Positions 1,928 to 30,552 of a stretch of 33,720 bases of DNA are shown piece after piece. Every line of letters starts with the position of its first letter. The first letter of the stretch is position 1. The notes beneath the pieces are model-generated. The model saw only the letters and a list, made by a program, of their open reading frames with translations, had not been told where the DNA came from and searched no databases. Location of the stretch: positions 1 to 33,720 of IMG/VR virus record IMGVR_UViG_3300046462_000521; one strand, 5' to 3'. The position numbers and the translations under genes were made by a program. Origin of the DNA: a virus.

Positions 1928-2145
1928 CTCCCGACGAACAGGAGGCCCTCTCCCGCGCTCTCTCCAACGACATCATCATCACGTTGCAACTCTCCAGCGG
2001 CAACATCGCTGTTTTCAACAGCGCCCGCGCGCTATGCGGCATTGTAGCAGATTGGCGACAAGCGCGGCTGGTGTGGTACGCGCCGCCCAGGAACAGCCGA
2101 ACTGCAGCCGAACATCGTCCGACTTTAGAGGAGCTTGGGCTATGA
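1924..2145 (+). CDS. hypothetical protein ending in the LEELGL tail, 73 aa
   Basis: No family was recognised. ATG 1924 overlaps the preceding stop (ATGA), which favours it over GTG 1918. The N-terminal two thirds (DEQEALSRALSNDIIITLQLSSGNIAVFNSARALCG) suggest a helix followed by a strand pair. The end, AAEHRPTLEELGL, is the clearest example of a short C-terminal motif shared with other early proteins in this window. The last 29 bases before the stop region (2110-2138) are repeated at 2372-2400 after the next gene. The tail-coding sequence also contains GAGGAG, which serves as ribosome binding site for the next gene. Confidence 0.65.
   Translation: MTPDEQEALSRALSNDIIITLQLSSGNIAVFNSARALCGIVADWRQARLVWYAPPRNSRTAAEHRPTLEELGL
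2110..2138 (+). repeat. 29-bp direct repeat, copy 1 (other copy 2372-2400)
   Basis: Positions 2110-2138 are identical to 2372-2400; one mismatch follows, then three more identical bases. Copy 1 encodes the EHRPTLEELG tail of the gene ending at 2145 and carries a GAGGAG ribosome binding site. Confidence 0.9.
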
Positions 2146-2369
2146 CCGCCAAGGTTGTCAGGCTTGAAAATCCAGTTGACATCGTGGCAATGCTGCGCGG
2201 CGCGGCCGATCGGATCGAGGCGGGTGAGTATCCCGATCTGCAATTCATCACCGCTGTTTTTGTCAATCGAGACAGCAGCTTTATCACTTACGGGTGGGGC
2301 CAGATGTCCACTCTGGAAGCGATCGGCTCGCTGGCTCGGGCAATTCGGAGCGATCTGGTAGACGAATGA
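2142..2369 (+). CDS. hypothetical protein lying between direct repeats, 75 aa
   Basis: It starts at ATG 2142 (ATGA overlap) with GAGGAG at 2129-2134 upstream. The sequence (MTAKVVRLENPVDIVAMLRGAADRIEAGEY ... SSFITYGWGQMSTLEAIGSLARAIRSDLVDE) looks like a compact alpha/beta domain. Similar small proteins with a central beta hairpin and a final helix are common hypothetical genes in phages of Gram-negatives, but I cannot name the family. The gene lies exactly between the two copies of the 29-bp repeat, so it looks like an insertion between the preceding gene and the helicase. Its stop is followed at once by repeat copy 2, which supplies the helicase ribosome binding site. Confidence 0.65.
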   Translation: MTAKVVRLENPVDIVAMLRGAADRIEAGEYPDLQFITAVFVNRDSSFITYGWGQMSTLEAIGSLARAIRSDLVDE

Positions 2370-2371
2370 GA

Positions 2372-2400
2372 GAACATCGTCCGACTTTAGAGGAGCTTGG
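2372..2400 (+). repeat. 29-bp direct repeat, copy 2 (other copy 2110-2138)
   Basis: Same 29 bases as 2110-2138. Here the copy is non-coding or vestigial: read from ATG 2366 it would again spell MREHRPTLEELGL, but the frame runs on through the helicase gene. Its GAGGAG (2391-2396) serves as ribosome binding site for the helicase at 2406. Confidence 0.9.
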
Positions 2401-2405
2401 TCTAA

Positions 2406-3854
2406 ATGCGCGAGCCAACCCCCGAACAGGCGGCGATCCTCGCCGCCGCCGTCGGCACCACCGACAACCTTCTCGTCAACGCCCTCGCTGGCACCGGCAA
2501 AACCTCTACCATCGAGATGATCTGCGCCGCGATCCAGGGCATCCCTATCCTCTACCTCGCCTTCAACAAGCGCATCGTAGACGAGGCCGTCAAACGAATG
2601 CCCTCCCACGTCGAGTGTCGCACACAGAACTCCGTCGGCCACCGAGTCTGGGGCCAAGCGACTGGGCGCCGGCTTGTCGTTGCAGCTGACAAGATGCGAA
2701 CCATCGTCCGCGCCCTCATCAGCGAAATGCCGAAGGCTCACCAAGGTGCCTACTGGGGTGATTTCTCCGACATCCTGAAGTGGTGCCAGCGCGCCAAACG
2801 GGACGGCTACGTACCCAAACGATGGGTCGGCCCCTGCCAGCCAGTCATGGACTGGGAGGAGTTCACCGACAGATACGACGACGATATGCCGCATCGTGGC
2901 ATCTTGGACGACGCTCTCATGCGATCCATCAGCGCGGCCTACGAGGGTGGTATCGACTACGATGACCAGATCTACATGCCCGTCATCTTCGGCGGCCCCT
3001 GGCCCAGATTCCCGCTCGTCATCGTAGATGAGGCCCAGGACCTGTCCCCCCTCAATCACGCGATGCTGTATGAGCTGGTATCTAAACGCCTCATCGCCGT
3101 CGGCGATCCGTGGCAGTCCATCTACGCTTTCCGCGGCGCTGTCTGTAACGGCATGTCAGCCCTGCACGAGCGCTTCTCCATGACCGATCTCCCCCTCTCC
3201 GTCACCTTCCGCGTTCCCAAGACAGGAGTCGAACGTGCCCGATCCAGAGTACCGCATTTCGTTGCGGCCTTGGCTAATCCGGTCGGCGAGGTCACGACCC
3301 TCGCCGAGTGGTCCGCCGCCGACGTACCCGCCGAAGCCGCCATCATCTGCAGAAACAACGCCCCCCTCATCTCCTTGGCATTCAAACTTCTGCGCAGCGG
3401 TCGCGCTATTAAGTTGGTGGGAATGGATATTGGTGCTGGCTTGGTCCGCACTTTGCGCAAGCTCGGCCCTCTCGATCTTCACGGCGTGGCGCTGACCACC
3501 GCCATCTACGACTGGACCGAGCGCGAACTTCGCACCGCACGACGTTCAACCGGCGCGATCTACGACCGCCAGGAATGTCTCTACGCTCTCTGCGAGGGCC
3601 GCTCTTCTCTCGGCGATGCCATCGCCAACGCAGAGGATTTGTTCCGCCGCGAAGGTCCAATTCAGCTTCTCTCTGGCCACAAATCCAAGGGTCTCGAGTG
3701 GCCCGTCGTGTTCCACCTCGATCCGTGGCGCATTCCCTCAAAATTCGCACGCGCTGGCGAGGTGCTGGAACAGGAGCTAAACGTGAAATATGTGATCGAG
3801 ACGCGGTTCAAGGAGCGTCTCGTGCTGGTTAACCTGGAGGGGTGGAGACAATGA
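2406..3854 (+). CDS. SF1 (UvrD/Rep-like) DNA helicase, 482 aa
   Basis: Helicase motifs appear in order: Walker A NALAGTGKTS (25-34), AFNKR motif Ia (52-56), Walker B DEAQD (208-212), motif III VGDPWQSIYAFRGA (232-245), motif IV TFR (267-269), motif V GHKSKGLEW (424-432) and motif VI YVIETR (462-467). UvrD normally has YVALTR at the last site, so the arginine finger position is kept. This is the UvrD/Rep/PcrA superfamily in compact form: it lacks the large 1B/2B insertions of the 650-720 residue cellular enzymes. Probable role: 3'-5' unwinding in phage replication or recombination. The ribosome binding site is GAGGAG within the second 29-bp repeat. Its stop overlaps the next start (ATGA). Confidence 0.92.
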   Translation: MREPTPEQAAILAAAVGTTDNLLVNALAGTGKTSTIEMICAAIQGIPILYLAFNKRIVDEAVKRMPSHVECRTQNSVGHRVWGQATGRRLVVAADKMRTIVRALISEMPKAHQGAYWGDFSDILKWCQRAKRDGYVPKRWVGPCQPVMDWEEFTDRYDDDMPHRGILDDALMRSISAAYEGGIDYDDQIYMPVIFGGPWPRFPLVIVDEAQDLSPLNHAMLYELVSKRLIAVGDPWQSIYAFRGAVCNGMSALHERFSMTDLPLSVTFRVPKTGVERARSRVPHFVAALANPVGEVTTLAEWSAADVPAEAAIICRNNAPLISLAFKLLRSGRAIKLVGMDIGAGLVRTLRKLGPLDLHGVALTTAIYDWTERELRTARRSTGAIYDRQECLYALCEGRSSLGDAIANAEDLFRREGPIQLLSGHKSKGLEWPVVFHLDPWRIPSKFARAGEVLEQELNVKYVIETRFKERLVLVNLEGWRQ

Positions 3855-4216
3855 AAACTGAGACCGAGGCCGACGTGATGGAGCGGGCACACGAGATCAT
3901 TCGTTCGGCAGCGCCAAGGGCAGATTTCCTACCTGCCGCCATTGCCCGCGCTCTGACCGAGTACGGCGACCAGCGCGCCCGCGAGGCCCGCGACAGTCTG
4001 CGCGAGCAGGGCTACTGCGTGGCGTGCGGGGTCTATCATCGCGTCGGCAACTGCGAAGCGGTCGAGAACACGAGACGCGAGGCCCGCGCGGCGGCGATTG
4101 AGGAGGCAGCTCAGGTCGTCGAGGAGCATAGCAAGTCTCCAGTCGGCATAACGTGGGGCAAACTAGAGACCGCCATCCGTGCGCTCGTTTCGAGGTCCGA
4201 GGGACGGCAGCAATGA
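3851..4216 (+). CDS. hypothetical protein with Cys/His cluster, 121 aa
   Basis: It starts at ATG 3851, overlapping the helicase stop, with GGAGG at 3836-3840. The central YCVACGVYHRVGNC has C-x2-C-x3-H-x4-C spacing and could bind one zinc ion. The flanks are helical and rich in Ala, Arg and Glu (EYGDQRAREARDSLREQ and RREARAAAIEEAAQVVEEH), suggesting helices around a zinc knuckle. The final segment (WGKLETAIRALVSRSEG) resembles the C-terminal helix of many small phage proteins of unknown role. It is coupled to the next gene by ATGA. No specific function can be assigned. Confidence 0.65.
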   Translation: MKTETEADVMERAHEIIRSAAPRADFLPAAIARALTEYGDQRAREARDSLREQGYCVACGVYHRVGNCEAVENTRREARAAAIEEAAQVVEEHSKSPVGITWGKLETAIRALVSRSEGRQQ

Positions 4217-4443
4217 ACGTCGTCGAAGGTTACTGCCCTGCATGTGGGTGTTGGGCCATGCGCCGGCACGGCCTCGCCGGAACGACTGGCGTGACCGGCG
4301 TAATCTGCACTAACTGTGGCTCGGATAGGTACATGGTTGTTTCTGAGACCGTGTGTAATATTCCAAAGGTGGAGCAAGCGCAAGCTGCTGTCTATGACAT
4401 AGCACAAGCTATAAAAGCGGCCGTCGAAGGAGATGAGGGGTGA
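4213..4443 (+). CDS. small zinc-ribbon protein, 76 aa
   Basis: ATG 4213 overlaps the previous stop (ATGA). Two CxxC knuckles, CPACGCW near residue 8 and CTNCGSDRY near residue 34, are separated by about 23 residues containing a Gly/Thr-rich turn. This is the layout of a one-zinc ribbon of the kind used in nucleic acid or protein binding. The C-terminal 30 residues form a predicted helix (VEQAQAAVYDIAQAIKAAVEGDEG). It is the last gene of the first coupled block: a gene-free stretch with a promoter follows. The zinc-ribbon call is from motif spacing; the target is unknown. Confidence 0.7.
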   Translation: MNVVEGYCPACGCWAMRRHGLAGTTGVTGVICTNCGSDRYMVVSETVCNIPKVEQAQAAVYDIAQAIKAAVEGDEG

Positions 4444-4477
4444 GTTGGCGCCGCCCAACGAGACATGACGATTTTTA

Positions 4478-4506
4478 TTGACAACGTGTACACATTCGGG
4501 CATCAT
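4478..4506 (+). promoter_or_regulatory. sigma70-like promoter
   Basis: TTGACA (4478-4483) matches the -35 consensus exactly. After a 17-base spacer, CATCAT (4501-4506) matches four of six -10 positions. It lies in the only sizeable gene-free gap of the early region, 35 bases before the next start. The spacer holds the palindrome GTGTACAC (4486-4493), a possible operator. ATGACAACATCGTACA at 4514-4529 partly repeats the -35 region. Confidence 0.6.
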
Positions 4507-4540
4507 GTACCGGATGACAACATCGTACAGAGGACATCAG

Positions 4541-5041
4541 ATGACCGCAATCACTATCCAGGGCTACAAGTTCGAGGTTCCCGAAGGCGCGATCGCTTCC
4601 ATCGTCGTCGGCTATACCCTTCAGGAAGAGGGTGAGGTCCACGCGCTGCGCCAGACGAAGCTCGAAAACCTCCGCAATAACTTCGCAGCGAAGGTCAAGG
4701 CGAAACTGAACGGCGCCGAGACTATTCCCGACGACGATCTCGCTGCGCTCCAGTCCGAGTTCGGCGAATACGCCGTCGCGTACAAATTCGGCCTCCGTGC
4801 TCCCGGCGAAGCCCGTCAGAAGCTCGATCCGGTCACCCGCGAGATGCTCAAGCTCGCGAAGGACGATTTCGCCAAGGCGTATTACGCCAAGTACGGCGAG
4901 AAGGCTGACAAGGAACTCGTGGCGGCTCGTGGCGAGGAGCTGATGGACAAGCGGCGTGACGATTACCAGAAGCGCGCGCGTGCCATCCTGCGTCAACGCG
5001 AGCAGATCGCGACGGACACTCTAGAGACCCTTGGTCTCTAG
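4541..5041 (+). CDS. conserved-looking early protein with LETLGL tail, 166 aa
   Basis: I start it at ATG 4541 because AGAGGA (4529-4534) is well placed there and the promoter lies just upstream; an in-frame start at 4478 would sit on the -35 box. The N-terminus is a short beta unit (ITIQGYKFEVPEGAIASIVVGYTLQEEG). The remainder is highly charged and helical (LRQTKLENLRNNFAAKVKAKL ... DDFAKAYYAKYGEKADKELVAARGEELMDKRRDDYQKRARAIL), perhaps a coiled coil. It ends DTLETLGL, one of the shared tails. It is first after the promoter, has its own leader and is followed by a hairpin, so it may be highly expressed. A DNA-binding or structural accessory role in replication is possible; no family was recognised. 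Confidence 0.75.
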   Translation: MTAITIQGYKFEVPEGAIASIVVGYTLQEEGEVHALRQTKLENLRNNFAAKVKAKLNGAETIPDDDLAALQSEFGEYAVAYKFGLRAPGEARQKLDPVTREMLKLAKDDFAKAYYAKYGEKADKELVAARGEELMDKRRDDYQKRARAILRQREQIATDTLETLGL

Positions 5042-5076
5042 GGTTCGGCGGGGGTTTCCCCCAGGTTAACCCGTCG

Positions 5077-5108
5077 AGGGGCCAAGGCCCAACCCGGCCT
5101 TGGCCCCT
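5077..5108 (+). terminator. strong intergenic hairpin without U tract
   Basis: A perfect 13-bp inverted repeat (arms 5077-5089 and 5096-5108, first arm AGGGGCCAAGGCC) has a 6-base loop. It lies 36 bases after one gene and 13 before the next start. No T run follows, so it is more likely an mRNA-stabilising or processing structure, or an attenuator, than a simple intrinsic terminator. Confidence 0.55.
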
Positions 5109-5121
5109 AACGGAGGTTCAC

Positions 5122-5277
5122 ATGCCATCCAAATCTCCTAAGCAGGCCCGCCTTATGGCCGCTGCTGCCCACAATCCCGCCTTCGCCAAGAAAGTCGGCG
5201 TCCCCGCCAAAGTGGCGAAAGAGTTCAATCAGGCCGACAAGGGCACCGGCATCCTGCGTAAGCGGAGGAAGAAATGA
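5122..5277 (+). CDS. small basic phage protein, 51 aa
   Basis: ATG 5122 follows CGGAGG with good spacing. The product begins MPSKSPKQARLMAAAAHNP, continues AFAKKVGVPAKVAKEFNQAD and ends in a basic RKRRKK run. This S-x-x-Q-x-x-L-M-A-A-A-x-x-x-P-x-F-A-K-K-V-G pattern is a very widespread small phage protein of unknown function, recognised from general knowledge. The basic tail suggests nucleic-acid binding. Its stop overlaps the next start (ATGA). Confidence 0.8.
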   Translation: MPSKSPKQARLMAAAAHNPAFAKKVGVPAKVAKEFNQADKGTGILRKRRKK

Positions 5278-5543
5278 AGCTCTGGAAAATAAGCCAGACC
5301 GCCCATGAAGATTGGGATACCTATGACAGCGCCGTTGTGGCAGCAGCATCGGAGGATGCTGCTCGAGGAATTCATCCTGGAATGGGTGGTGACTGGGACA
5401 ACAACGCACGGTGTTGGGCCTCCGAGAGTAGCGGCTATGGCACCTGGTGTCGAACGCCAATCCTCGTCAAAGTCGAATTGATCGGGGAAGCCGTCGAAGA
5501 CACACCTACCGGCGTAATTGTTGCCAGTTTCCACGCCGGTTAA
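5274..5543 (+). CDS. conserved hypothetical phage protein, 89 aa
   Basis: ATG 5274 overlaps the previous stop, and the basic-tail coding sequence AGCGGAGGAAG supplies a ribosome binding site. The sequence (MKLWKISQTAHEDWDTYDSAVVAAASEDAARGIHPGM ... WCRTPILVKVELIGEAVEDTPTGVIVASFHAG) matches in layout a small protein often seen in phages of Proteobacteria: a first strand, a D-T-Y-D-S-A-V-V-A-A helix, a Trp-rich loop, then V-K-V-E-L-I-G-E-A and a final VIVASFHAG strand. No biochemical role is known to me. It is directly followed by the next ATG with no gap. Confidence 0.75.
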   Translation: MKLWKISQTAHEDWDTYDSAVVAAASEDAARGIHPGMGGDWDNNARCWASESSGYGTWCRTPILVKVELIGEAVEDTPTGVIVASFHAG

Positions 5544-5777
5544 ATGGCTCGCCGCGGCCGTCCCCCAAAGGGCTTCACCGTTGACACCGACTTGCCGGAG
5601 CTTCTTGAGATATGGAACCGCGCTACCGCCTCGCCCTCCGGCATCGCCATCGCGTCGTCGCGGCCAAACCGCCTCGCGCAGAAGCTGTACTACGCCCGGC
5701 GCGAGTGCGGCCACAACGCTTATGATGGCTGGACGGTAGTTGAACAGGAGGATGAGGTATGGATACAACCGCGCTGA
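5544..5777 (+). CDS. hypothetical protein with AT-hook-like N-terminus, 77 aa
   Basis: The start codon immediately follows the previous stop. The N-terminus MARRGRPPKGF contains R-G-R-P-P-K-G, close to the AT-hook core (Gly-Arg-Pro flanked by basic residues) that binds the minor groove. The middle segment (ELLEIWNRATASPSGIAIASSRPNRLAQKLYYARRE) reads like the small helical domain of phage proteins that often begin RGRP and contain a similar F/YxAR pattern. DNA binding is therefore a reasonable inference, not shown. The C-terminus (GWTVVEQEDEVWIQPR) looks like a beta hairpin. GAGGG near its stop (5776-5780) serves the following gene. Confidence 0.65.
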   Translation: MARRGRPPKGFTVDTDLPELLEIWNRATASPSGIAIASSRPNRLAQKLYYARRECGHNAYDGWTVVEQEDEVWIQPR

Positions 5778-5787
5778 GGGTCCCCTA

Positions 5788-5952
5788 ATGGAACGCCTAT
5801 CTCACCACCACATTCTCCTTTTCCACGGCGACTTCGACCGCCTCACCGAAATCTACCACATCAAGAAGCCCACCGTCGTAATTCGGGAACTCGTGCGTAA
5901 GCATATCGAGGCGGTTGAGGCTAGGCTCGCCGAGCGCGAAAATGCCGGCTGA
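5788..5952 (+). CDS. probable ribbon-helix-helix DNA-binding protein, 54 aa
   Basis: ATG 5788 has GAGGG 7 bases upstream (5776-5780). The sequence HHILLFHGDFDRLTEIYHIKKPTVVIRELVRKHIEAVEARL fits the ribbon-helix-helix plan: a short strand, helix A (DFDRLTEIYH), a turn and helix B (TVVIRELVRKHIEAV). The I-R-E-L-V-R signature is typical of Arc/CopG proteins. Such dimers usually repress phage or plasmid promoters. The GTGTACAC palindrome at 4486 and the palindromes at 34, 9622 and 30518 are candidate targets, which is speculation. It overlaps the following start by 11 bases. Confidence 0.6.
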   Translation: MERLSHHHILLFHGDFDRLTEIYHIKKPTVVIRELVRKHIEAVEARLAERENAG

Positions 5953-6214
5953 GCTGCCCTATCCGTGGGAGATAATCCGGCGGAACTTTCGCCGCGAGGT
6001 AGACATAATCGTGCGCGGAAGCCTCATTGCAGTGTATCCTCCCCGAAAGCACCCGCAGAAGGCCGTCGTAGGCCGGCACTATAGGAGACCACCATGCCCG
6101 ACGAAGTATCCACCATTGCCGAACTTTACGCTCGCGACCCCTTTGAACTCTCAGCTCTCGACATCGACCGCATCATCGAGTACTACGCGGCCCGTCGGAA
6201 AGAGTTCGCGCTGA
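5942..6214 (+). CDS. doubtful hypothetical ORF, 90 aa, C-terminal half overlapped
   Basis: From ATG 5942 the first 50 residues (MPAELPYPWEIIRRNFRRE, then VDIIVRGSLIAVYPPRKHP) look like a real basic protein and fill a gap that would otherwise be empty. From 6094 on, the frame overlaps the next gene and its Ser/Thr/Pro-rich translation looks like a shadow. It may be a genuine gene with a non-conserved tail, or a remnant truncated by the gene at 6094. The ribosome binding site is weak (GAG only). Confidence 0.4.
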   Translation: MPAELPYPWEIIRRNFRREVDIIVRGSLIAVYPPRKHPQKAVVGRHYRRPPCPTKYPPLPNFTLATPLNSQLSTSTASSSTTRPVGKSSR

Positions 6215-6276
6215 CCGGGAAGGGTGGTCCGCGGATCGAGAAGCCGCAAGCGTCACTCGACGATCTTGGCCTCTAA
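6094..6276 (+). CDS. small acidic protein with LDDLGL tail, 60 aa
   Basis: ATG 6094 has AGGAG (6083-6087) upstream. The product contains DPFELSALDIDRIIEYYAARRKEF, a helix-rich pattern I recognise from small phage proteins of unknown function (a D-P-x-x-L-T/S-x-x-D-I-D-x-I-I-E-Y-x-R core). It ends IEKPQASLDDLGL. Unlike the example at 2145, this tail is not shaped by an overlapping ribosome binding site, since AAGGAG lies after the stop. That suggests the tail is selected as protein sequence. Confidence 0.7.
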   Translation: MPDEVSTIAELYARDPFELSALDIDRIIEYYAARRKEFALTGKGGPRIEKPQASLDDLGL

Positions 6277-6285
6277 AAGGAGAAC

Positions 6286-6299
6286 CCCGACGTGGCTGA
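6286..6299 (+). repeat. direct repeat, copy 1 (other copy 6497-6510)
   Basis: CCCGACGTGGCTGA is identical at 6286-6299 and 6497-6510. With the bases upstream, including the GGAG ribosome binding site, about 22 of 26 positions match. Each copy carries the GTG start of the gene that follows it. Confidence 0.85.
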
Positions 6300-6510
6300 C
6301 CTGCTCACAGAACTAATCGAGTTCGATTACTCCGAGATTCCAGAAGAGCGCCGCCCCCGATCAGGAAATCATTGGCGCTGCAACGTCTGTGGGAAACATG
6401 CTGCTGATAAATATGGCATTATCGGGCCACATTCTTCTATGTGGGACGAAAGTTGCATGATGCACGCAGACGAAGTACCCCTCCTTATAGGAGGAGCCCG
6501 ACGTGGCTGA
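6292..6510 (+). CDS. hypothetical Cys/His protein lying between direct repeats, 72 aa
   Basis: GTG 6292 follows AAGGAG (6277-6282). WRCNVCGKHAADKYGIIGPHSS and the later CMMHADE supply C-x2-C and C-x2-H pairs about 22 residues apart, a plausible single-zinc knuckle. The gene is AT-richer than its neighbours. It sits between two copies of a junction sequence that contains the start codon of the following nuclease, so it looks inserted just ahead of the nuclease. Its own first residues (MAD) mirror those of the nuclease (MAE) because of that repeat. It overlaps the nuclease start by 8 bases. Confidence 0.6.
   Translation: MADLLTELIEFDYSEIPEERRPRSGNHWRCNVCGKHAADKYGIIGPHSSMWDESCMMHADEVPLLIGGARRG
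6497..6510 (+). repeat. direct repeat, copy 2 (other copy 6286-6299)
   Basis: Second copy of CCCGACGTGGCTGA. It holds the stop of the small gene (6508-6510) and the GTG start (6503) of the PD-(D/E)XK nuclease. Confidence 0.85.
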
Positions 6511-7387
6511 ATCCCCTTATCTCCCCGACGGCCGCCAGTGGGCATGGTCCGCATCCCACCTGTCCCTCGCCAAAGACTGCTGGCGCAAATACTTCTACGC
6601 AACGCGGCTGAACCTTCAGCGCCGCGACCTCTCGGTCGATCTGATCTTCGGTAAGCACTACGCGAAGGCGCTGGAAACGTACCACAAGCTGCGCCTGATT
6701 GAAGGGCTCGACCACGATGACGCCCTCCACAACGTCGTTTTCAGGGCCCTATGTGACACCGCCGGCTGGCACCCCGAACACAACTTCAAGACCCGTGAGA
6801 ACCTAATCCGCTCCATCATTTGGTACCTCGAACAGTTCAAGGACGACCCATGCAAAACCGTGGTCCTGGCGGACGGTCGGCCCGCCGTCGAACTCCCCTT
6901 TCGTTTTCAGCTCACCGCGGATTACGTCTTGTGCGGGCACCTCGACCGTATCGTGGAATACGCGGGTGGCTTGTACGTTCAGGATCAAAAGACGACTGGA
7001 GCCACGCTCGGTGGGTATTACTTCAAACGCTACAACCCCGACGTACAAATGTCGCTCTACAGCGTTGCCGCCAAGGTTGTATGGCATACGCCAGTCCAAG
7101 GCGTCATGATAGATGCGGCTCAAATCGCTGTCGGCTTCACAAGGTTCGAGCGTGGCTTCTCCTACCGCACCGATGAGCAGCTCGACGAGTGGACCGCCGA
7201 CACGCTGTACGTGATCGAGGATCAGGAGCGCGCCCGCGACGCGGGATGGCCTATGAATGACGCCGCCTGCCAGAAGTACGGTGGCTGTCAGTTCCTTGAA
7301 GTGTGCTCAAAGTCACCGCAGGTCCGTAAGGACTTCCTTGCGACAGGGTTTGTCGAGAGCGACTACTCTCCGTTGGAGGCACGCTGA
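6503..7387 (+). CDS. RecB/Cas4-type PD-(D/E)XK nuclease with putative 4Fe-4S cluster, 294 aa
   Basis: GTG 6503 follows GGAGGAG (6490-6496). Nuclease residues are in the expected order: Glu130, GHLDR with Asp148, the D-x-K pair Asp161/Lys163 (VQDQKT) and the RecB-type Gln182-x3-Tyr186 (QMSLY). Cys26 (KDCWRKY) and a C-terminal set, Cys256, Cys262 and Cys268 (C-x5-C-x5-C), match the one-plus-three cysteine layout of AddB and Cas4, which holds a 4Fe-4S cluster. The likely role is resecting or trimming DNA ends during phage recombination, working with the Sak4-like ATPase and SSB-like protein downstream. It ends SPLEAR, and the coding sequence for EAR plus stop is repeated 172 bases on. Confidence 0.88.
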   Translation: MAESPYLPDGRQWAWSASHLSLAKDCWRKYFYATRLNLQRRDLSVDLIFGKHYAKALETYHKLRLIEGLDHDDALHNVVFRALCDTAGWHPEHNFKTRENLIRSIIWYLEQFKDDPCKTVVLADGRPAVELPFRFQLTADYVLCGHLDRIVEYAGGLYVQDQKTTGATLGGYYFKRYNPDVQMSLYSVAAKVVWHTPVQGVMIDAAQIAVGFTRFERGFSYRTDEQLDEWTADTLYVIEDQERARDAGWPMNDAACQKYGGCQFLEVCSKSPQVRKDFLATGFVESDYSPLEAR

Positions 7388-7391
7388 CATG
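7376..7391 (+). repeat. 16-bp direct repeat, copy 1 (other copy 7548-7563)
   Basis: GAGGCACGCTGACATG spans the nuclease C-terminal EAR codons, its stop and the next ATG. It is identical to 7548-7563. Confidence 0.9.
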
Positions 7392-7559
7392 GACGAAGAA
7401 GCAGCTATCGTGATAGTTGGGTGGATGGTATGTATTCCATTCGCTGATCAAAATTATGCTGTAAAAGCGGCAGACGAAACAGGATTTATCTACCACCTTA
7501 GACCAATGTACAAGGACGGCTCTTTAGGAGAACCGAAATTTTCCAATGAGGCACGCTGA
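7389..7559 (+). CDS. hypothetical protein lying between direct repeats, 56 aa
   Basis: ATG 7389 uses GGAGG at 7375-7379. The product (MDEEAAIVIVGWMVCIPFA, then KAADETGFIYHLRPMYKDG and KFSNEAR) has a hydrophobic first strand or helix and a central Y-H-L-R segment; no family was recognised. It is AT-rich compared with the nuclease and ATPase on either side. Both ends lie in copies of a 16-bp sequence that includes stop and start codons, so the gene looks precisely inserted between nuclease and ATPase. Its last residues, EAR, repeat those of the nuclease for the same reason. Confidence 0.6.
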   Translation: MDEEAAIVIVGWMVCIPFADQNYAVKAADETGFIYHLRPMYKDGSLGEPKFSNEAR

Positions 7560-7563
7560 CATG
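7548..7563 (+). repeat. 16-bp direct repeat, copy 2 (other copy 7376-7391)
   Basis: Second copy of GAGGCACGCTGACATG. It provides GAGG as ribosome binding site and the ATG of the Sak4-like ATPase. Confidence 0.9.
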
Positions 7564-8355
7564 CCTAGCGCCGCCGACCACCAATCCGCCCACCTTCACA
7601 AGCTCCTTTACATCGGAGACTCAGGTACCGGCAAAACCACATCCCTCTTCTCGCTCCTCCAGGCTGGTTACCACCTTCGCATCTACGACTTTGACAACCT
7701 CCTTGACCCTTTGATCGCCCTGACACGTGGCCGCGCTCCCGAACTCCTGTCCCAAATCGAGTTCATGTCCTTCCGCGACCGCATGAAAGCGACTCCTTTG
7801 GGCCCCATAATCGACGGCCAGCCCAAAGCCTTCATCGAGTCCCTCCAAGCCTTCGACAAATGGGAGGACGGCTCCGACCCCTCCAAATGGGGCCCTCGCC
7901 ACATCGCGGTCGTGGACAGTCACACGACCCAGGCACGCGCAGCTTATTTCTGGGCGCGCGGGATGCAAGGGGCTGCGGGCCTACCCGAGGGCATCTCGTC
8001 GAAGGGCATCGAGCCCCGCGCCATCTTCTTCACTGCCCAACAGGCCGTGATGAACACCATCGCCCTCCTAACAGGCGAGCAATTCAACACCAACGTCATC
8101 GTCATAGCGCACGTCAAATATCTCGAACACAGCGGTAACACCAAGGGTTTCCCACTCTCGGTCGGTACCGCCATCTCGCCCGAAATCCCAACCTATTTCC
8201 CTTCGGTCGCCTTGGCGACGAAGTCGGCCTCCGGCAACCGTGTAATCCGCACGAGGTCTACCTTGATGATAGACCTCAAAGACCCCAAAACCTTCGACCC
8301 GACCTACGCAGATGAGCTGCCGATGGACACGGGCCTTGCGGAAATCTTCAAATGA
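7561..8355 (+). CDS. Sak4-like RecA-fold ATPase (phage recombinase), 264 aa
   Basis: I start it at ATG 7561 with GAGG at 7548-7551; the in-frame ATG at 7546 has no site. Walker A is GDSGTGKTT (19-27), Walker B IAVVDSH (about 115-121), and NVIVIAHVKYLEHSG is a typical sensor strand of the phage AAA_24/Sak4 group, minimal RecA-core proteins that promote single-strand annealing. A nuclease upstream and an SSB-like protein downstream fit the usual Sak4 gene neighbourhood. The length matches the family. Alternative reading: a generic phage P-loop ATP-binding protein without recombinase activity. A 57-residue ORF is coupled to it by ATGA. Confidence 0.82.
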   Translation: MPSAADHQSAHLHKLLYIGDSGTGKTTSLFSLLQAGYHLRIYDFDNLLDPLIALTRGRAPELLSQIEFMSFRDRMKATPLGPIIDGQPKAFIESLQAFDKWEDGSDPSKWGPRHIAVVDSHTTQARAAYFWARGMQGAAGLPEGISSKGIEPRAIFFTAQQAVMNTIALLTGEQFNTNVIVIAHVKYLEHSGNTKGFPLSVGTAISPEIPTYFPSVALATKSASGNRVIRTRSTLMIDLKDPKTFDPTYADELPMDTGLAEIFK

Positions 8356-8525
8356 CCATCCATGAATTTCTCCAGCTTAAGTGGAAGCCACCCAACGATC
8401 TCGACAAGATAGTTGGGTTGGTTCAAGCCCCCAACAAAGTCATAATTGTAACCGAGCTGTTCATTTATGGTTGTTGGGCTGCCAATGACGGCAAACCAGT
8501 TATATATCGACTAACCCCCTACTAA
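8352..8525 (+). CDS. hypothetical small protein, 57 aa
   Basis: ATG 8352 overlaps the ATPase stop (ATGA). The protein (MTIHEFLQLKWKPPNDLDKI, then VGLVQAPNKVIIVTELFIYG and a short end VIYRLTPY) is predicted to be mostly beta. It fills what would otherwise be a 217-base gap and is AT-richer than the ATPase, like other small accessory genes here. No family was recognised. The coupled start is the main support for its being real. Confidence 0.5.
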   Translation: MTIHEFLQLKWKPPNDLDKIVGLVQAPNKVIIVTELFIYGCWAANDGKPVIYRLTPY

Positions 8526-8535
8526 GAAGAAACCC

Positions 8536-8548
8536 CCGGCAACGCCGG
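8536..8548 (+). other. short intergenic hairpin
   Basis: CCGGC AAC GCCGG gives a 5-bp stem with a 3-base loop between the 57-residue ORF and the SSB-like gene. No T tract follows. It is weak and could be chance. Confidence 0.3.
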
Positions 8549-8572
8549 TTCCTCTTACCAACGGAGTTTTCC

Positions 8573-9031
8573 ATGCCCACCTTTGAAGAAATCGCCAACA
8601 TGCCTGCGGCTGACATCAAGCCCCCGCCGCTCCTTCCCCCTGGCACTTACCTCGTCGGCATCATCGGTATCCCCGAACTCGTCAAATCCACCCAGAAGCA
8701 GACCGATGGCGTCGCGTTCAAGCTGAAGTTCTTCCAGGCCCGTGACGACGTGGATCGCACGGCCCTTGCCGCTACCCTCGAAGGAGGCGGGCGCGCCCTC
8801 ACCGACTGTGAAATGACCGACACGTTCTGGGTCACCGACAAGTCGGCCTTCATGCTCAAGAACTTCCTCGTCGATGCAGTCGGAATCGACGACGGCAAGG
8901 GAAAGAAGCCGCTGAAGCAGATGTGGACGGAAGCAGCCGGACAGCAGTTCCTGGCCCACATCCGACACCGCCCTCGCACCGACGGCACCGGCCTCTTCGC
9001 CGAAATCGACAGCCGCGCCAAGGCGGTCTAA
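8573..9031 (+). CDS. probable single-stranded DNA-binding protein (DUF669/DUF2815-like), 152 aa
   Basis: ATG 8573 follows GGAG (8562-8565). The body starts PPGTYLVGIIGIPELVKSTQKQT and continues VAFKLKFFQARDDVD, the opening seen in phage OB-fold SSB-like proteins that sit next to Sak4 or RecT genes. It then has a polar loop, FWVTDKSAFMLKNFLVDAVGID and a final beta unit HIRHRPRTDGTGLFAEIDSRAKAV. The family call is by pattern and neighbourhood, not exact motif. There is no acidic SSB tail: it ends RAKAV. It has its own leader and is followed by a GNRA-loop hairpin, so it may be expressed well above its neighbours, as expected for an SSB. Confidence 0.65.
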   Translation: MPTFEEIANMPAADIKPPPLLPPGTYLVGIIGIPELVKSTQKQTDGVAFKLKFFQARDDVDRTALAATLEGGGRALTDCEMTDTFWVTDKSAFMLKNFLVDAVGIDDGKGKKPLKQMWTEAAGQQFLAHIRHRPRTDGTGLFAEIDSRAKAV

Positions 9032-9041
9032 CACCAACGGT

Positions 9042-9059
9042 AGGGGGCGAAAGCCCCCT
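9042..9059 (+). terminator. GNRA-tetraloop hairpin after the SSB-like gene
   Basis: AGGGGGC GAAA GCCCCCT is a 7-bp perfect stem closed by a stable GAAA tetraloop, 10 bases after the SSB-like stop and 15 before the next start. There is no U tract, so it may protect the upstream mRNA end or attenuate rather than fully terminate. Confidence 0.5.
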
Positions 9060-9074
9060 GCCAAGGGAGGTTCC

Positions 9075-10334
9075 ATGCCAAGCGGCACATTCTCATCCTG
9101 TCCTCTCGACTTCATCGCCATCCCGCCCCGACAGCGCCAACGGCCCAACTTCTTGGCAGGCCTCGACCGGCTCGCCGACTCCATATCCCGTCTCGGCCTT
9201 CTCCACCCCATCGTCATAACCCGCGAGCACGTCCTAATCGCCGGCGAGCGCCGTCTCGAAGCGTGCCGCTCTCTTGGCTGGACCAACATCCCGTTTCAGT
9301 ACGCCGACGAAACCGATCCGCGACTGCTGAAGTGTATGGAACTCGAAGAGAACACGCGTCGCAAAGACCTCACATGGCAAGAGATCAACGACGCGATGGC
9401 CGAGGCATACGCGATCTACAAGGAACTCGAGCCCGAGGCGACGCAGACGCAAATCGCCGAGCGGATGGGGGAGGATCAAGGGAACCTGTCAGCTCACTTA
9501 CTGGTGAAGGAGGAGCGAGCGCGCAATCCTGCACTCTCGCGCGAGGATACCTTTCGGACGGCGCGCGATCGTTCACAGGCAGCTGTGAAGCGGCGGGCCG
9601 CCGATGAGGATATGAACATTAATGGACCGTCCATGAATGGATATACACCCTCTGTGCTTTGCGAAAATTTTTTTAGCTGGGCCCCACAGTACAGCGGCCC
9701 CAAGTTCAACCTCCTTCACTGCGATTTTCCCTACGGCATAGATTCCCAAAATTCGGCCCAAAACGCCTCTGGCTACGACGACAGCATGACGGTTTATATG
9801 GAACTCATGAAGTGCCTCGCTGTCAATCTCGACAACTTCTGCACACCGTCAGCCCATATGATTTTCTGGTTTTCGCCCGGCCGTTATTCTCTAGTATGGG
9901 AGAACCTTAAGCTCCTTGACGGCTTCGTTTGGGACGAAGTTCCGCTCGTTTGGTTCAAATCAGATAACGCTGGCATAATCCCCGATCTCCGCCACCGACC
10001 ACGCCGTGTATACGAGACCGCCTTCTTTGGCTGGCGTGGAGGACGCGAACTCTTGCGCGTGCGCGCCAACACCTTCGCCGCACCGACAGAACGCCAGAGG
10101 CATCCCCATGAAAAATCCGAAGAAGCCCTCCGACACTTCTTCTCCATGTGCGTTGATTCCACAACGAGACTTCTCGATCCCACTTGCGGATCAGGTTCTG
10201 CGCTCCGTGCAGCGAAGAGTCTCGGGGCAAGCACCGTCCTCGGACTCGAGCGAGACGCCGGTTATGCCGACGAGGCCCGGCGCAGTCTCAGTGGGGGTGG
10301 GATCGGATTACGAGACGGTCAGGTTGACTCTTAA
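9075..10334 (+). CDS. ParB-like domain / DNA methyltransferase fusion, 419 aa
   Basis: ATG 9075 follows GGGAGG. Residues 10-100 form a ParB/Srx-type domain: PPRQRQR, LADSISRLGLLHPIVI and the GERRLEACRSLGW signature (57-69). A helical linker (100-175, TQTQIAERMGEDQGNLSAHLL) resembles the ParB helix-turn-helix. The C-terminal part is an amino-methyltransferase with DFPYG (217-221, the DPPY catalytic motif IV, second residue Phe instead of Pro), HPHEKSEE (343-350) and the AdoMet motif LLDPTCGSGSALRAAKSLGA (366-385) followed by GLERD. Catalytic motif before AdoMet motif indicates the beta class (N6-adenine or N4-cytosine). No restriction partner is adjacent, so it is probably an orphan phage modification enzyme. 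Confidence 0.88.
   Translation: MPSGTFSSCPLDFIAIPPRQRQRPNFLAGLDRLADSISRLGLLHPIVITREHVLIAGERRLEACRSLGWTNIPFQYADETDPRLLKCMELEENTRRKDLTWQEINDAMAEAYAIYKELEPEATQTQIAERMGEDQGNLSAHLLVKEERARNPALSREDTFRTARDRSQAAVKRRAADEDMNINGPSMNGYTPSVLCENFFSWAPQYSGPKFNLLHCDFPYGIDSQNSAQNASGYDDSMTVYMELMKCLAVNLDNFCTPSAHMIFWFSPGRYSLVWENLKLLDGFVWDEVPLVWFKSDNAGIIPDLRHRPRRVYETAFFGWRGGRELLRVRANTFAAPTERQRHPHEKSEEALRHFFSMCVDSTTRLLDPTCGSGSALRAAKSLGASTVLGLERDAGYADEARRSLSGGGIGLRDGQVDS
9622..9634. promoter_or_regulatory. 13-bp palindrome inside the methyltransferase gene
   Basis: ATGGAC C GTCCAT is a 6-bp inverted repeat with a 1-base centre, coding in the linker between ParB and methyltransferase domains. The same 13 bases occur in reverse orientation at 30529-30541, inside a larger palindrome. 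It may be a protein-binding site; function is inferred only. Confidence 0.45.
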
Positions 10335-10428
10335 CGGGCCTGATTTTGGATTAATGAAAGAGCTGATGCCCCGCGAGGCTGTACAGTTGGCGCACCGTAT
10401 CCTCCGCGAAGCTGTCATTCTCCTGTGA
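10264..10428 (+). CDS. hypothetical small protein, 54 aa
   Basis: The best start is ATG 10264, which overlaps the methyltransferase C-terminus by 71 bases; the frame is open further upstream and a GTG at 10291 is an alternative. The convincing part is GSDYETVRLTLNGPDFGLMKELMPREAVQLAHRILREAVILL: two strands followed by an amphipathic helix, after the methyltransferase stop. No family was recognised. Its stop overlaps the next start (GTGA), which supports translation. No clear ribosome binding site was seen. Confidence 0.5.
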   Translation: MPTRPGAVSVGVGSDYETVRLTLNGPDFGLMKELMPREAVQLAHRILREAVILL

Positions 10429-11480
10429 CCCGCATCGTCATCATCGGGGAAGCCTGGGGCCGTGACGAAGCTCCTCTGCGTCGCCCCTTCATCGGCGCAT
10501 CAGGGCGCCTCCTCAACCAGCTTCTCGAAGAGGCCGGCCTCCTCCCCTTGGGCAGCGCCCGCCGCATTTCGCCCGCTTACAGTAACTTCCTCCATCACGT
10601 CAGGGATGAAATCTATGACGCCGCAGGAATCCACCTTACGAACGTACTTAATCTCCACCCACCCGGTAACAAGATCGTCGATCTATGTGGTCCTCGATGG
10701 GGAAATTTTCCGCCTATCAGACCAGGAAAGTACCTTCGTGAAGAGTTCACTTCAGAGATCGATCGGCTGCAATCCGAACTCGTCGATCACAAGCCTAATC
10801 TTATTCTCGGACTTGGAGCAACTAGCGTATGGTTTGGGCTCGGCACTTCGCAGATTGGGCGCTTTCGGGGAGCGATTGCTCCCTCGAGTTATGGGAAATT
10901 TCTTCCAACATATCATCCAGCGTTCTTGCTTCGTGGAGCCTGGGACCTCCGACCTGTCGTAATCCAAGACCTTTTCAAAGCCGCCTACGAGGCCGATTTC
11001 CCCGAGGTCCGGCGTCCCGCCCGTACCATCTACGTCCCCGAGACCCTTGACGAGATAGAGTTCTGTCTGCGCGAGTGCGCGCTTGCGTCGCGCATCTCGA
11101 TTGACGTGGAGACGGTCGCCGACCAAATAACCTCCATCTCCTTCGCATGGTCGTCCACAGTATGCTGCGTCATTCCTATCTTCAAGGGCGGTTACTCGTA
11201 TTGGCCTCATGATGAGCCCGCCGTCTGGCGTTTCATCGCGCGCTTTTGCGCACTCCCTGCGCCGAAGGTGGGCCAGAACTTCATCTACGACATGCGGTTT
11301 TTGTGGGAGCGGTACGGTATCACAGTCCGCAACGTCGCCGACGACACAATGCTGCTGCACCACGCGCTGCAGCCCGAACTCCAGAAAGGTCTAGCTTTCT
11401 TGGGCAGTATCTACACCAACGAACCTTCCTGGAAACCACGCTACTCCAAGTCAGGGACGGTGAAACATGAAGATGCCTGA
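10425..11480 (+). CDS. UDG-like domain fused to a partial 3'-5' exonuclease domain of family A DNA polymerase, 351 aa
   Basis: GTG 10425 overlaps the previous stop. Residues 1-190 are of the uracil-DNA glycosylase superfamily, nearest family 4/5: IGEAWG (7-12, usually EAPG), PFIGASGRLLNQLL (21-34), LTNVLNLHPPGNK (71-83) and YHPAFLLR (163-170). The Fe-S cysteines of true family 4 enzymes are not evident. Residues 200-351 are the DnaQ-like proofreading domain: exo I SIDVET (225-230, D227 and E229) and exo II KVGQNFIYDMRFL (281-293, N285 and D289). The protein stops after KHEDA, before exo III, which is found at the start of the polymerase ORF 12102. The two proteins presumably assemble, or each has changed role. 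Confidence 0.85.
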   Translation: MTRIVIIGEAWGRDEAPLRRPFIGASGRLLNQLLEEAGLLPLGSARRISPAYSNFLHHVRDEIYDAAGIHLTNVLNLHPPGNKIVDLCGPRWGNFPPIRPGKYLREEFTSEIDRLQSELVDHKPNLILGLGATSVWFGLGTSQIGRFRGAIAPSSYGKFLPTYHPAFLLRGAWDLRPVVIQDLFKAAYEADFPEVRRPARTIYVPETLDEIEFCLRECALASRISIDVETVADQITSISFAWSSTVCCVIPIFKGGYSYWPHDEPAVWRFIARFCALPAPKVGQNFIYDMRFLWERYGITVRNVADDTMLLHHALQPELQKGLAFLGSIYTNEPSWKPRYSKSGTVKHEDA

Positions 11481-11673
11481 CACATTCACCCTTCAGGGGT
11501 TGATGGACGCCGAGGTATGGTGTCGAGACCCCCTCAACATAAACCATTGGCTCAACGTAGTCGGTACGAGAAAGGCAGGTCGCCGTGTCGAATACACCCC
11601 TCGTGATAGTCGAGAGCCCCTACAGCGGGGACGTTCCCCGGAACATGGAATACCTCCGAAAGTGTCTCCGTGA
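11467..11673 (+). CDS. doubtful small ORF between polymerase halves, 68 aa
   Basis: ATG 11467 overlaps the exonuclease stop by 14 bases. The first 40 residues (MKMPDTFTLQGLMDAEVWCR, then DPLNINHWLNVVGTRKAGR) look like a real, Trp-containing peptide and fill the gap 11481-11584. After 11585 it overlaps the next gene and reads as a low-quality basic tail. No family was recognised. It may be a short gene or a remnant. Its start lies in CATGAAGAT (11466-11474), which recurs at the start of the polymerase gene (12101-12109). Confidence 0.4.
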   Translation: MKMPDTFTLQGLMDAEVWCRDPLNINHWLNVVGTRKAGRRVEYTPRDSREPLQRGRSPEHGIPPKVSP

Positions 11674-11938
11674 CTGCATCATGCGGGGTGAGAGCCCTTA
11701 CGCCTCACACGGCCTGATTTCGGGTGCCCTTGACGAGGCGACGGAACGCCAGCGCGGCATCGAAGCCGGCTACGCATGGTGGCGGGTCGCCGACAAGGTA
11801 GTGTTCTACACAGATCTTGGTTGGTCTCGTGGGATGGCCGCCGCGATGGATCGGCTGCAGCGCCAGCCGACCTTCATGCAGGACGGCTACCCGAAGCTGC
11901 CGTTTGAGATAAGGAAACTGCCGTGCACGAACAAATAG
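11585..11938 (+). CDS. DUF7768-like protein, nucleoside 2-deoxyribosyltransferase superfamily, 117 aa
   Basis: It starts at GTG 11585. VIVESPYSGD (7-16) is the typical first strand and loop of nucleoside deoxyribosyltransferase-fold proteins found in phages. It is followed by RNMEYLRKCLRDCIMRGESPYASHG, then GIEAGYAWWRVADKVVFYTDLGWSRGMAAAMDRL, which holds the conserved G-I-E-A-G-x-A-W and Y-x-D-x-G-x-S-x-G-M segments. Family membership is from pattern memory. Possible roles are nucleotide or nucleotide-signal handling; many members are uncharacterised. It lies in the insertion that separates the polymerase halves and overlaps the next gene by 16 bases. Confidence 0.75.
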   Translation: MSNTPLVIVESPYSGDVPRNMEYLRKCLRDCIMRGESPYASHGLISGALDEATERQRGIEAGYAWWRVADKVVFYTDLGWSRGMAAAMDRLQRQPTFMQDGYPKLPFEIRKLPCTNK

Positions 11939-12105
11939 AAAGCTATGTTGGACTTGATGTTACAGAAGAAGAACAGCTTAAAAATATGTTAGCGATGTTA
12001 ACGCTGGACGCCCTTAAAAAACGAAATCTAATAACCTTCCGTGTTGTTGGTAAGGGTAAGGATAAATGGCGCCGTGCAGTAATTCGACTCGTAGTCGCCC
12101 CATGA
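11923..12105 (+). CDS. hypothetical AT-rich small gene between polymerase halves, 60 aa
   Basis: It starts at GTG 11923 inside the preceding gene (16-base overlap, AAGG-type site at 11912). The protein is helical then basic (MHEQIESYVGLDVTEEEQLK, a Leu/Met-rich helix, then RVVGKGKDKWRRAVIRLVVAP) and could bind nucleic acid. The DNA is clearly AT-richer than both flanking genes, a sign of separate origin. No family was recognised. Its stop overlaps the polymerase start (ATGA), so polymerase translation is coupled to it. Confidence 0.6.
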   Translation: MHEQIESYVGLDVTEEEQLKNMLAMLTLDALKKRNLITFRVVGKGKDKWRRAVIRLVVAP

Positions 12106-25824: not shown

Positions 25825-26619
25825 CTAGTACGCCCCACCCGCATCCTCGACAAACGGCATCGACGCCCAAGGCATCCACAACGTTCCCGGACCCGACCAA
25901 GCCGCCCCTGCCGTCCGCGCCCTTATCCAGTCTGGTGTGTGATCCGCTATTGTCCAGCCTTCATCACCGTCACGTACTCGCGCAGCGTCAAGCGCACCCT
26001 TCGCTATCGAGATGTTGTCGGCGCGCACAATGCGCGCCTCTCTCTTATCCTTGATAACCGCCATCGCAAGCCGCGCTGCCAATACCGCCACCATGGCCTG
26101 CTCGAAGAGGGGGTCCCAGGCATCAGGATACATCATCATGCCAGTGTAAACAAGCGATGCTGTGAGCTGGTTCGTGAGGATTACACGAGTCTGTTCCGGA
26201 TCGTGCCCTTCGATCTGATCCCATTGAGATTCGATCGGGTTGGGTATACTGAAAGAGGCGACAAGGAACGGCGCAGGTGACGCCCATGTAAGGATGTTGC
26301 CCACCACTGTCTGATCGGTGCGCGGCACAAATCTCGCGTGAACACAGTCTGTAGGCCATTCGTACATATAGGACCACGGCCCGGGCACACCTGTGAAGGC
26401 GGCGTTGATCCCAGTCACATCCCCTATCATAACCAGCTTTTCTTGCTTTCGCGCAAAGTTCCAATGCGCCGCGCTCAACAACTGGCGCAGCGTCGGGTCA
26501 TAAATCCGCAATGCGGCCATCGCCGCGTCCGTACCCTCACTCAGATCGCCAACGTCATATTCATCGAACCCGCACTCGTCAAGCGCGCGGTTCACAAGAT
26601 CAACTGGGAGGGTTGGCAT
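25825..26619 (-). CDS. tail tube protein A / adaptor paralog 3, 264 aa
   Basis: The N-terminus LPVDLVNRALDECGFDEYDV, then GDLSEGTDAAMAALRIYDPTLRQLLSAAHWNFARK, has the gp11-type adaptor pattern: N-x-A-L-x-x-x-G, an acidic E-G-T, then Y-x-x-x-x-R-x-L-L ... W-x-F-A. WSYMYEWPTDCVHARFV is the typical Y-x-Y-P/W-P-x-D-C segment. A C-terminal helix (EQAMVAVLAARLAMAVIKDKREARI) is followed by a Trp-rich extension (WTIADHTPDWIRARTAG) absent from the other two copies. It is the longest and best family match of three tandem copies. Its start overlaps the preceding gene by 20 bases. Adaptor rings of this type join portal to nozzle. Confidence 0.75.
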   Translation of the reverse strand: MPTLPVDLVNRALDECGFDEYDVGDLSEGTDAAMAALRIYDPTLRQLLSAAHWNFARKQEKLVMIGDVTGINAAFTGVPGPWSYMYEWPTDCVHARFVPRTDQTVVGNILTWASPAPFLVASFSIPNPIESQWDQIEGHDPEQTRVILTNQLTASLVYTGMMMYPDAWDPLFEQAMVAVLAARLAMAVIKDKREARIVRADNISIAKGALDAARVRDGDEGWTIADHTPDWIRARTAGAAWSGPGTLWMPWASMPFVEDAGGAY

Positions 26620-27184: not shown

Positions 27185-27726
27185 GAGTCCCTCATGTTAG
27201 CAATACCGGCGAAGCTCAACGCCTCCGATAACTTCTCCCTTGACGCCTCAATCCGATTTTCGAGTGCAAACGCCAGGGCACTACCAAGCAGCCGCGTATA
27301 CGCCTCAGTAAAGATCGAGTCCCAAAAATCTTCGAGAACCTCGACGGTCGCAAGAACACTAGATGCCGCGACCCGCGTTACGATCTGCCGCACTCCAGGT
27401 ACAAGACTAGTCGCCATTACGTTCCATTCAACCGGATGCGGGTCTAACGGGTTGTAATCGGCTGGAATAACTTGCCGTACCCGAATAATGTTAGGGTATT
27501 GATAAGCGAACAACCACGCCGGGGGCGGATTCCCTGCCATAGCTACCAGTGGAATTTGGAGCATCGACCAATCATAATCACCCTCGTACAAGAGGAAGTT
27601 ACGAAGTGGTACGTAGAGAAGGTTTGCGTACAGCGCTTCCGTCGAACCATCCGTCATCGACGAAATCTGAGATCGCGAGCCGATCTGAGCAAGCGCCCGA
27701 TTGGTTACATCAACGCTTGTTGTCAT
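27181..27726 (-). CDS. tail tube protein A / adaptor paralog 1, 181 aa
   Basis: The start overlaps the spike stop (ATGA). VDVTNRALAQIGSRSQISSM, then TDGSTEALYANLLYVPLRNFLLYEGDYDWS aligns with the openings of the next two genes (N-R-A-L-x-x-I-G, D-G-S, Y-x-x-L-R-N-x-L-L). WLFAYQYPNIIRVRQVIP corresponds to their Y-x-Y-P block but lacks its Cys. The C-terminal helix (FWDSIFTEAYTRLLGSALAFALENRIE) again matches. It is the first of three consecutive gp11-like genes. The family call is good; whether it is the main adaptor is uncertain. Confidence 0.72.
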   Translation of the reverse strand: MTTSVDVTNRALAQIGSRSQISSMTDGSTEALYANLLYVPLRNFLLYEGDYDWSMLQIPLVAMAGNPPPAWLFAYQYPNIIRVRQVIPADYNPLDPHPVEWNVMATSLVPGVRQIVTRVAASSVLATVEVLEDFWDSIFTEAYTRLLGSALAFALENRIEASREKLSEALSFAGIANMRDS

Positions 27727-30503: not shown

Positions 30504-30517
30504 GGTTGCTCTCCTTC

Positions 30518-30552
30518 GATGTACATGAATGGACGGTCCATACGTGTACATC
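30518..30552. promoter_or_regulatory. 35-bp hyphenated palindrome between virion genes
   Basis: Outer arms GATGTACA (30518-30525) and TGTACATC (30545-30552) and inner arms ATGGAC (30529-30534) and GTCCAT (30536-30541) are all perfect complements, separated by mismatched 3-base steps around a single central base. It fills most of the gap between the cement gene stop and the next ribosome binding site. It could fold as an mRNA hairpin or bind a dimeric protein. The inner 13 bases recur at 9622-9634. Confidence 0.6.

Follow-up and report, generated by a model that had tools for sequence, protein, structure and literature searches.

Short repeats carrying translation start signals flank small genes at the gene junctions of a phage genome

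The DNA analysed here, referred to below as the window, is a 33,720-base IMG/VR virus record taken over its full length. Its replication region occupies the + strand in the left half and includes genes for a UvrD-like helicase, a PD-(D/E)XK exonuclease, a Sak4-like AAA protein, a ParB/methyltransferase, a family A DNA polymerase and a primase (Pfam/PHROG assignments); a tail gene is encoded on the - strand. Among cultured phages, the closest one found is the Caulobacter phage Kuura, with 33.5% identity in the nuclease and 34.6% in the polymerase. Table 1 lists the features considered.

Table 1. Repeat copies, mini-genes and neighbouring genes (window coordinates, except in the last row).
Feature	Position	Strand	Remarks
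Third case, repeat copy 1	2110..2142	+	Last 11 codons of upstream gene (EHRPTLEELGL), with mini-gene RBS
Third mini-gene, 75 aa	2142..2369	+	
Third case, repeat copy 2	2372..2404	+	Immediately 5' of helicase start
UvrD-like helicase gene	2406..3854	+	Pfam/PHROG
Counter-example mini-gene	5274..5543	+	Absent in G001; without long junction repeat
Upstream gene, 60 aa	6094..6276	+	C-terminus ..DDLGL; homologues precede nuclease in 46 listed loci
Junction repeat copy 1	6278..6299	+	RBS, GTG start and codons 2-3 of 72-aa mini-gene
Mini-gene, 72 aa, Cys/His-rich (CxxC ... CxxH)	6292..6510	+	Homologues in G001/G002 only
Junction repeat copy 2	6489..6510	+	RBS, GTG and codons 2-3 of nuclease, with mini-gene stop
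PD-(D/E)XK (exo)nuclease, downstream core gene	6503..7387	+	PF12705, E 8e-16
Second case, repeat copy 1	7376..7391	+	Nuclease tail (EAR stop), RBS, mini-gene ATG
Second mini-gene, 56 aa	7389..7559	+	This phage only; C-terminus ..NEAR, like nuclease ..LEAR
Second case, repeat copy 2	7548..7563	+	Mini-gene stop, RBS region, ATG of Sak4-like gene
AAA/Sak4-like single-strand annealing protein gene	7561..8355	+	Pfam/PHROG
Counter-example mini-gene	8352..8525	+	Absent in G001; without long junction repeat
Counter-example mini-gene	11923..12105	+	Different gene in G001; without long junction repeat
G001-side differences	21107-21334, 25691-25879, 27224-27451, 30286-30669 (127 aa)		G001 coordinates; without repeat of at least 12 nt

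At the junction leading into the nuclease gene, the 14-mer CCCGACGTGGCTGA occurs at 6286-6299 and again at 6497-6510, with no third site in the window when two mismatches are allowed. The original prediction had reported this identity; it is exact and the pair is unique in the window. The surrounding similarity, put there at about 22 bases of 26, was likewise correct: 20 of 22 nt are identical over the full block (6278-6299 vs 6489-6510) and 23 of 27 in a longer comparison kept in register (6273-6299 vs 6484-6510). So was the placing of a 72-residue Cys/His gene ahead of a PD-(D/E)XK nuclease, the open reading frame at 6292-6510 (with C30, C33, C55 and H58 among its Cys/His residues) being followed by a gene matching PF12705. 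The block begins at the RBS, past the stop of the upstream gene (6276), and leaves the 3′ end of that gene outside the repeat. The stop codon of the mini-gene (TGA, 6508-6510) falls within copy 2, inside GTGGCTGA and in a different frame from the nuclease.

The 72-aa product matches nothing in Pfam or PHROG and has no homologue among 50,697 phage records; 502 pattern matches in bacterial genome contigs yielded no confirmed case. Its homologues are confined to two sister sequences, G001 and G002, both of which carry the mini-gene with both junction copies. An Rfam scan of the window gave no RNA element match. The left copy of the window equals the right copy of G001 at all 22 positions, so the mismatches now seen within the window are most simply later changes, and the two copies of the block were probably once identical.

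Two further mini-genes of the window are flanked in the same manner. Copies are identical at 16 of 16 positions in the second case (7376-7391 vs 7548-7563) and at 32 of 33 in the third (2110-2142 vs 2372-2404), and in both the repeat includes the 3′ end of the upstream gene. The three blocks have no sequence relation to one another, and none of the three mini-genes was found beside another junction in 264 loci. In G001, the helicase-side copy 2 together with the ATG preceding it makes up a 13-residue open reading frame (MSEHRPTLEELGL) lying between two mini-genes (G001 21073-21110). A GGCGG-rich tract of 9/12-nt repeats is present within a long open reading frame at 1645-1880 of the window; its G001 counterpart (about 20260-20530) is a different repeat-rich sequence.

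Matches of this kind might arise by convergence, the genes of one genome having similar ribosome binding sites and first codons, and the blocks do sit on the RBS and start. Each junction was scored by matching the segment from -40 to +20 around a gene's start to the corresponding segment of the following gene, with a register tolerance of 4 nt. The null paired each gene with non-adjacent genes from its genome, partners up to two genes away being left out. Genes were called with a simple, purpose-written and unbenchmarked program; those of less than 100 codons were classed as small, and pairs entered the comparison if they were at most 60 nt apart and had no overlap above 30 nt. Stretches with 40-mers common to an earlier sequence were masked and low-complexity matches down-scored. 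The first set comprised 107 sequences from the family to which the window belongs, one of uncultured bacterial viruses (1.44 Mb, of which 1.29 Mb non-duplicate), loci duplicating whole records being left out.

Among 1096 small-gene pairs of this set, 15 share at least 12 nt, against 0.61 expected from 30,320 non-adjacent pairs, 17 of which reach that length (Poisson 3e-16). The corresponding figures are 30 against 4.05 at a threshold of at least 10 nt and 8 against 0.14 at 14 nt or more. The 774 large-gene pairs give 6 at 10 nt or longer (expected about 3.1), 1 at 12 nt or longer (expected 0.85) and none from 14 nt upwards. Within the window alone, 3 of 13 small-gene junction pairs have a match of at least 12 nt in register, vs 0 of 521 non-adjacent pairs. 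With the lineage of the window removed, 10 of 1061 pairs still match and 10 genomes have a match (null mean 0.57, maximum 4 in 2000 draws). A second family set (set 3; 76 loci, 0.71 Mb of new sequence) gave 6 matches of at least 12 nt in 498 small pairs against 0.70 expected, 4 of the 6 coming from one contig, L273; without it, 2 were observed against 0.66 expected. L273 is a 14-kb contig in which four mini-genes (2110-11722) have four different 13-16-nt junction repeats, and thus resembles the window in its abundance of such junctions. When both family sets are pooled, matches of at least 12 nt fall from 24 of 1925 with the next gene to 4 of 1827 one gene further and 0 of 1386 seven genes further.

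A further set, made up mostly of unrelated phages plus Kuura (set 2; 81 loci, 1.41 Mb), gave no small-gene effect at 12 nt or more (0 of 412 pairs vs 0.19 expected), a result that differs from that of the first family set (Fisher p = 0.016). Large genes of this set had 4 matches of at least 12 nt in 886 pairs vs 0.56 expected (in L188, L152, L201 and L185). A local excess of exact repeats in the spacing spectrum is also present in the unrelated set; being nonspecific, it was not relied on.

The comparison with shuffled junctions that accompanied the original prediction thus comes out in its favour for this family: repeats of at least 12 nt at adjacent small-gene junctions exceed those at non-adjacent ones by about 24-fold, and those at large-gene junctions do not. 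An excess restricted to small genes and ending at the neighbour is not explained by shared RBS and start context. The blocks moreover extend into gene tails and N-terminal codons. Convergence is, on these grounds, highly improbable.

Use of one regulatory start motif at several genes of the genome would be another way to obtain repeats at starts. Such a motif is known from cluster K mycobacteriophages, whose start-associated sequences (SAS) are described in the part of PMC3203893 drawn on here as a 13-bp, AGGAG-containing motif with 11-19 copies in each genome, placed 3-7 bp upstream of starts. The present repeats resemble SAS in being located at the RBS and start of non-structural genes. SAS, however, are spread genome-wide with no tie to neighbouring pairs, whereas the three repeats of the window differ from one another and the 14-mer is limited to its own pair. 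Of the readings considered, a shared motif is the least probable.

Repeat blocks were found in other members of the family as well. In L223 the slot ahead of the nuclease, occupied in the window by the gene at 6292-6510, holds an unrelated mini-gene with a 20/20 repeat around it. Elsewhere the copies agree at 22 of 23 (L087), 27 of 29 (L028), 16 of 16 (L023), 24 of 26 (L030), 19 of 21 (L084), 17 of 17 (L112), 18 of 19 (L055) and 14 of 14 positions (L104); over all cases block length ranges from 13 to about 38 nt. Some blocks include the last codons of the upstream gene, giving shared ends such as EETP (L023), KDTP (L087) and EAR (window). Others extend past the start into coding sequence, giving the mini-gene the same N-terminal residues as the downstream gene (MTSHL in L112, MTSDPT in L055, MTDE in L104). 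In L112, the homologue of the mini-gene in L071 starts 11 residues later, which fits a copying of the N-terminal codons from the neighbouring gene. A possible resemblance of the L087 mini-gene to DUF551 found no Pfam match, and the case for its copied tail comes from the nucleotide repeat.

It had been proposed that both RBS and start are regenerated for the downstream gene. This holds for 6278-6299/6489-6510, where the block carries both, but is too broad as a rule: the repeats of L112, L055, L104, L062 and L069 have their first base no more than 2 nt from the start codon and thus duplicate the start and not the RBS. We examined 18 events, hand-picked from the longest repeats (at least 13 nt), with window/G001 duplicates counted once, L028 and L087 included from the exact-repeat scan and the shorter L245 event (below) left out. 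A whole start codon is inside copy 1 in 14 of the 18, and a whole stop codon is inside copy 2 in 14 of the 18, the latter being partly expected because mini-genes end near the next start.

Several familiar mechanisms were considered. Tandem gene duplication was rejected since none of the 30 small-gene pairs with matches of at least 10 nt showed blastp homology between mini-gene and neighbour (L245 lay outside this check). The 13-38-nt spread in block length and the lack of a transposase match in the mini-genes scanned speak against a transposon generating target-site duplications, and the lack of a Pfam/PHROG nuclease match in these mini-genes against insertion by a homing endonuclease or intron.

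One junction is available in both states. In L234 the upstream and downstream genes are immediate neighbours, with a single junction copy and no mini-gene; in its near relative L245 a 74-aa mini-gene occupies this junction with a copy on either side. The flanks are 92% and 87% identical, on the L234 side 16 nt are common to both BLAST hits, and the L245 copies share, in register, AAGGAAGACT, one further A and the ATG. The site is likewise empty in L097, L262 and L288. In this pair a single junction copy has become two around a derived mini-gene.

For the mini-gene at 6292-6510, the loci searched provided no close empty relative but only outgroups, with about 30-55% identity in the upstream protein, so the direction of change at this site is inferred from outgroups. 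Its slot is occupied to very different extents: the gap between upstream gene and nuclease is 45 nt or less in 11, 46-110 nt in 10 and more than 110 nt in 25 of 46 listed loci, and that between nuclease and Sak4-like gene falls in these same classes in 23, 17 and 121 of 161 listed loci, several rows in these counts being one contig entered twice. Both junctions of the exonuclease gene (6276-6503 and 7387-7561) are hypervariable slots of the family, with different small genes in different phages.

The same repeats could be read in terms of loss. Direct repeats of 13-38 nt would allow a precise deletion restoring the junction, and old mini-genes might keep such repeats wherever looping-out is possible, their presence reflecting a pending deletion instead of a gain. 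From the 6292-6510 junction by itself, gain and loss look the same. Against loss, the mini-genes are private to one lineage, sisters and outgroups being empty or having other genes at these positions. We consider this reading very unlikely.

Not all changes in mini-gene content leave a repeat. Eight mini-gene differences were resolved between the window and G001 (the differing window regions 1080-1924 and 3854-4460 lie outside these eight, not being resolved into genes), and a repeat of at least 12 nt is associated with one, that at 7389-7559 of the window. Over 21.5 kb G001 and G002 share 99.98% identity, but a whole mini-gene (75 aa, G001 27224-27451, in L042) at the start of the ParB/methyltransferase gene is present in only one of the two; here there is a resemblance in RBS and start, and the long repeat is absent. 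Junction duplication is therefore one outcome among several. The original prediction of a recurring process by which accessory genes enter at translation junctions stands in part. It is borne out by the excess over non-adjacent junctions for small genes only, by the locality of that excess, by the unrelated nature of the mini-genes, L223 included, and by the L245/L234 pair. It does not extend to junction duplication as the main entry route, given one instance in eight G001 differences, nor to the unrelated phage set, in which small genes had no effect.

The interpretation that we consider reasonably probable is that the three mini-genes of the window are accessory genes inserted by events that duplicated a short stretch of the junction together with the translation start region. 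Insertion at a gene junction would duplicate 13 to about 38 nt including this region; one copy would then drive the new gene and the other would stay before the old downstream gene, leaving both neighbours intact. The duplication would arise in the insertion event itself and not be carried in by a donor. That block length varies (13-38 nt) argues against a transposase and points towards a possible origin in homology-poor recombination or in template switching during replication. The exonuclease, Sak4-like protein and helicase of the phage could assist and are candidates by virtue of their presence. Selection would retain insertions that left the tails and starts of the neighbours undamaged. 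With genes abutting or overlapping, an insertion that duplicates nothing disrupts the tail of one gene or the start of another, whereas a duplicating one spares both, so selection would enrich for events at start codons whatever the enzyme. Since stop and start are often both contained in the block, its two copies can turn an open stretch inserted between them into a complete gene.

Alternatively, the repeat could be the site and not the product of recombination. A donor phage or circle with the mini-gene and the same junction would recombine at the pre-existing boundary, a single crossover gaining the mini-gene (or removing it elsewhere). Donors are plausible as the core genes are common across the family, and genes for an exonuclease and a Sak4-like annealing protein are present in the phage. 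This is also the published reading of the mycobacteriophages Island3 and Brujita, where, according to the parts of PMC3029335 drawn on here, a 60-bp end is shared and the Brujita copy is a recombinant of both. Such an exchange shifts the question to the donor, in which a two-copy mini-gene must first have arisen, and the mini-genes of the window were beside no other junction in the 264 loci. We regard recombination with a donor as a less likely possibility and retain insertion with duplication as the preferred reading.

Individual cases with this anatomy are on record. In the sections of Pope et al. (2011, PMC3029335) considered here, Island3 gene 68 is an 85-aa orphan following a core gene; a stretch at its 3′ end (60 bp, 18 residues) is common with the upstream gene, and Brujita, a near-identical phage without the insert, has one copy. 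The 72-aa mini-gene is similar in lacking relatives outside G001/G002, in lying between two core genes and in having end repeats beyond chance. Island3 is a single instance, and its repeat, placed at the 3′ end of each gene, is longer. The blocks described here measure 13-38 nt and have the next start at their centre; they recur from junction to junction with unlike sequences and were measured against a null. That at 6278-6299 starts after the upstream stop. Genes 43-46 of LRRHood, as compared with Cali in the same sections, are foreign genes set between 29-bp direct repeats at a gene junction, relatives being single-copy; that insert is a four-gene, 1.35-kb block, whereas those found here are single mini-genes. 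Short conserved boundary sequences have also been proposed as recombination sites at mosaic phage junctions (work cited in those sections). They are common to different phages at one boundary, whereas the present repeats stand twice in a single genome, to the left and right of a new gene. The anatomy itself is thus known from single cases, Island3 gene 68 and the LRRHood block as presented by Pope et al. No description of a recurrent, small-gene-specific junction duplication was found in openly licensed papers; as far as literature searches among these show, what is new is the statistical comparison with non-adjacent junctions, the confinement of the effect to small genes and their neighbours, and the location of both start and stop within the copies.

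Phage genomes constantly gain small genes of unknown function, and the question is how these enter a near-gapless genome without damage to the neighbours. With a measurable signature confined to small genes and neighbouring junctions, recent gains can be dated and the mechanism can be put to the test. For annotation it carries a warning, since codons at either end of a mini-gene may be copies derived from a neighbour. We offer, tentatively, the wider idea that junction duplication might be a general route of gene capture or gene birth in compact phage genomes: open DNA caught between duplicated stop-RBS-start junctions would be translated at once, with copy 1 providing the start and copy 2 the stop, neighbours unharmed and later loss made precise by the repeats. 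Small genes lying between two copies of a start signal fit a way of adding genes to a packed genome that leaves its neighbours unbroken.
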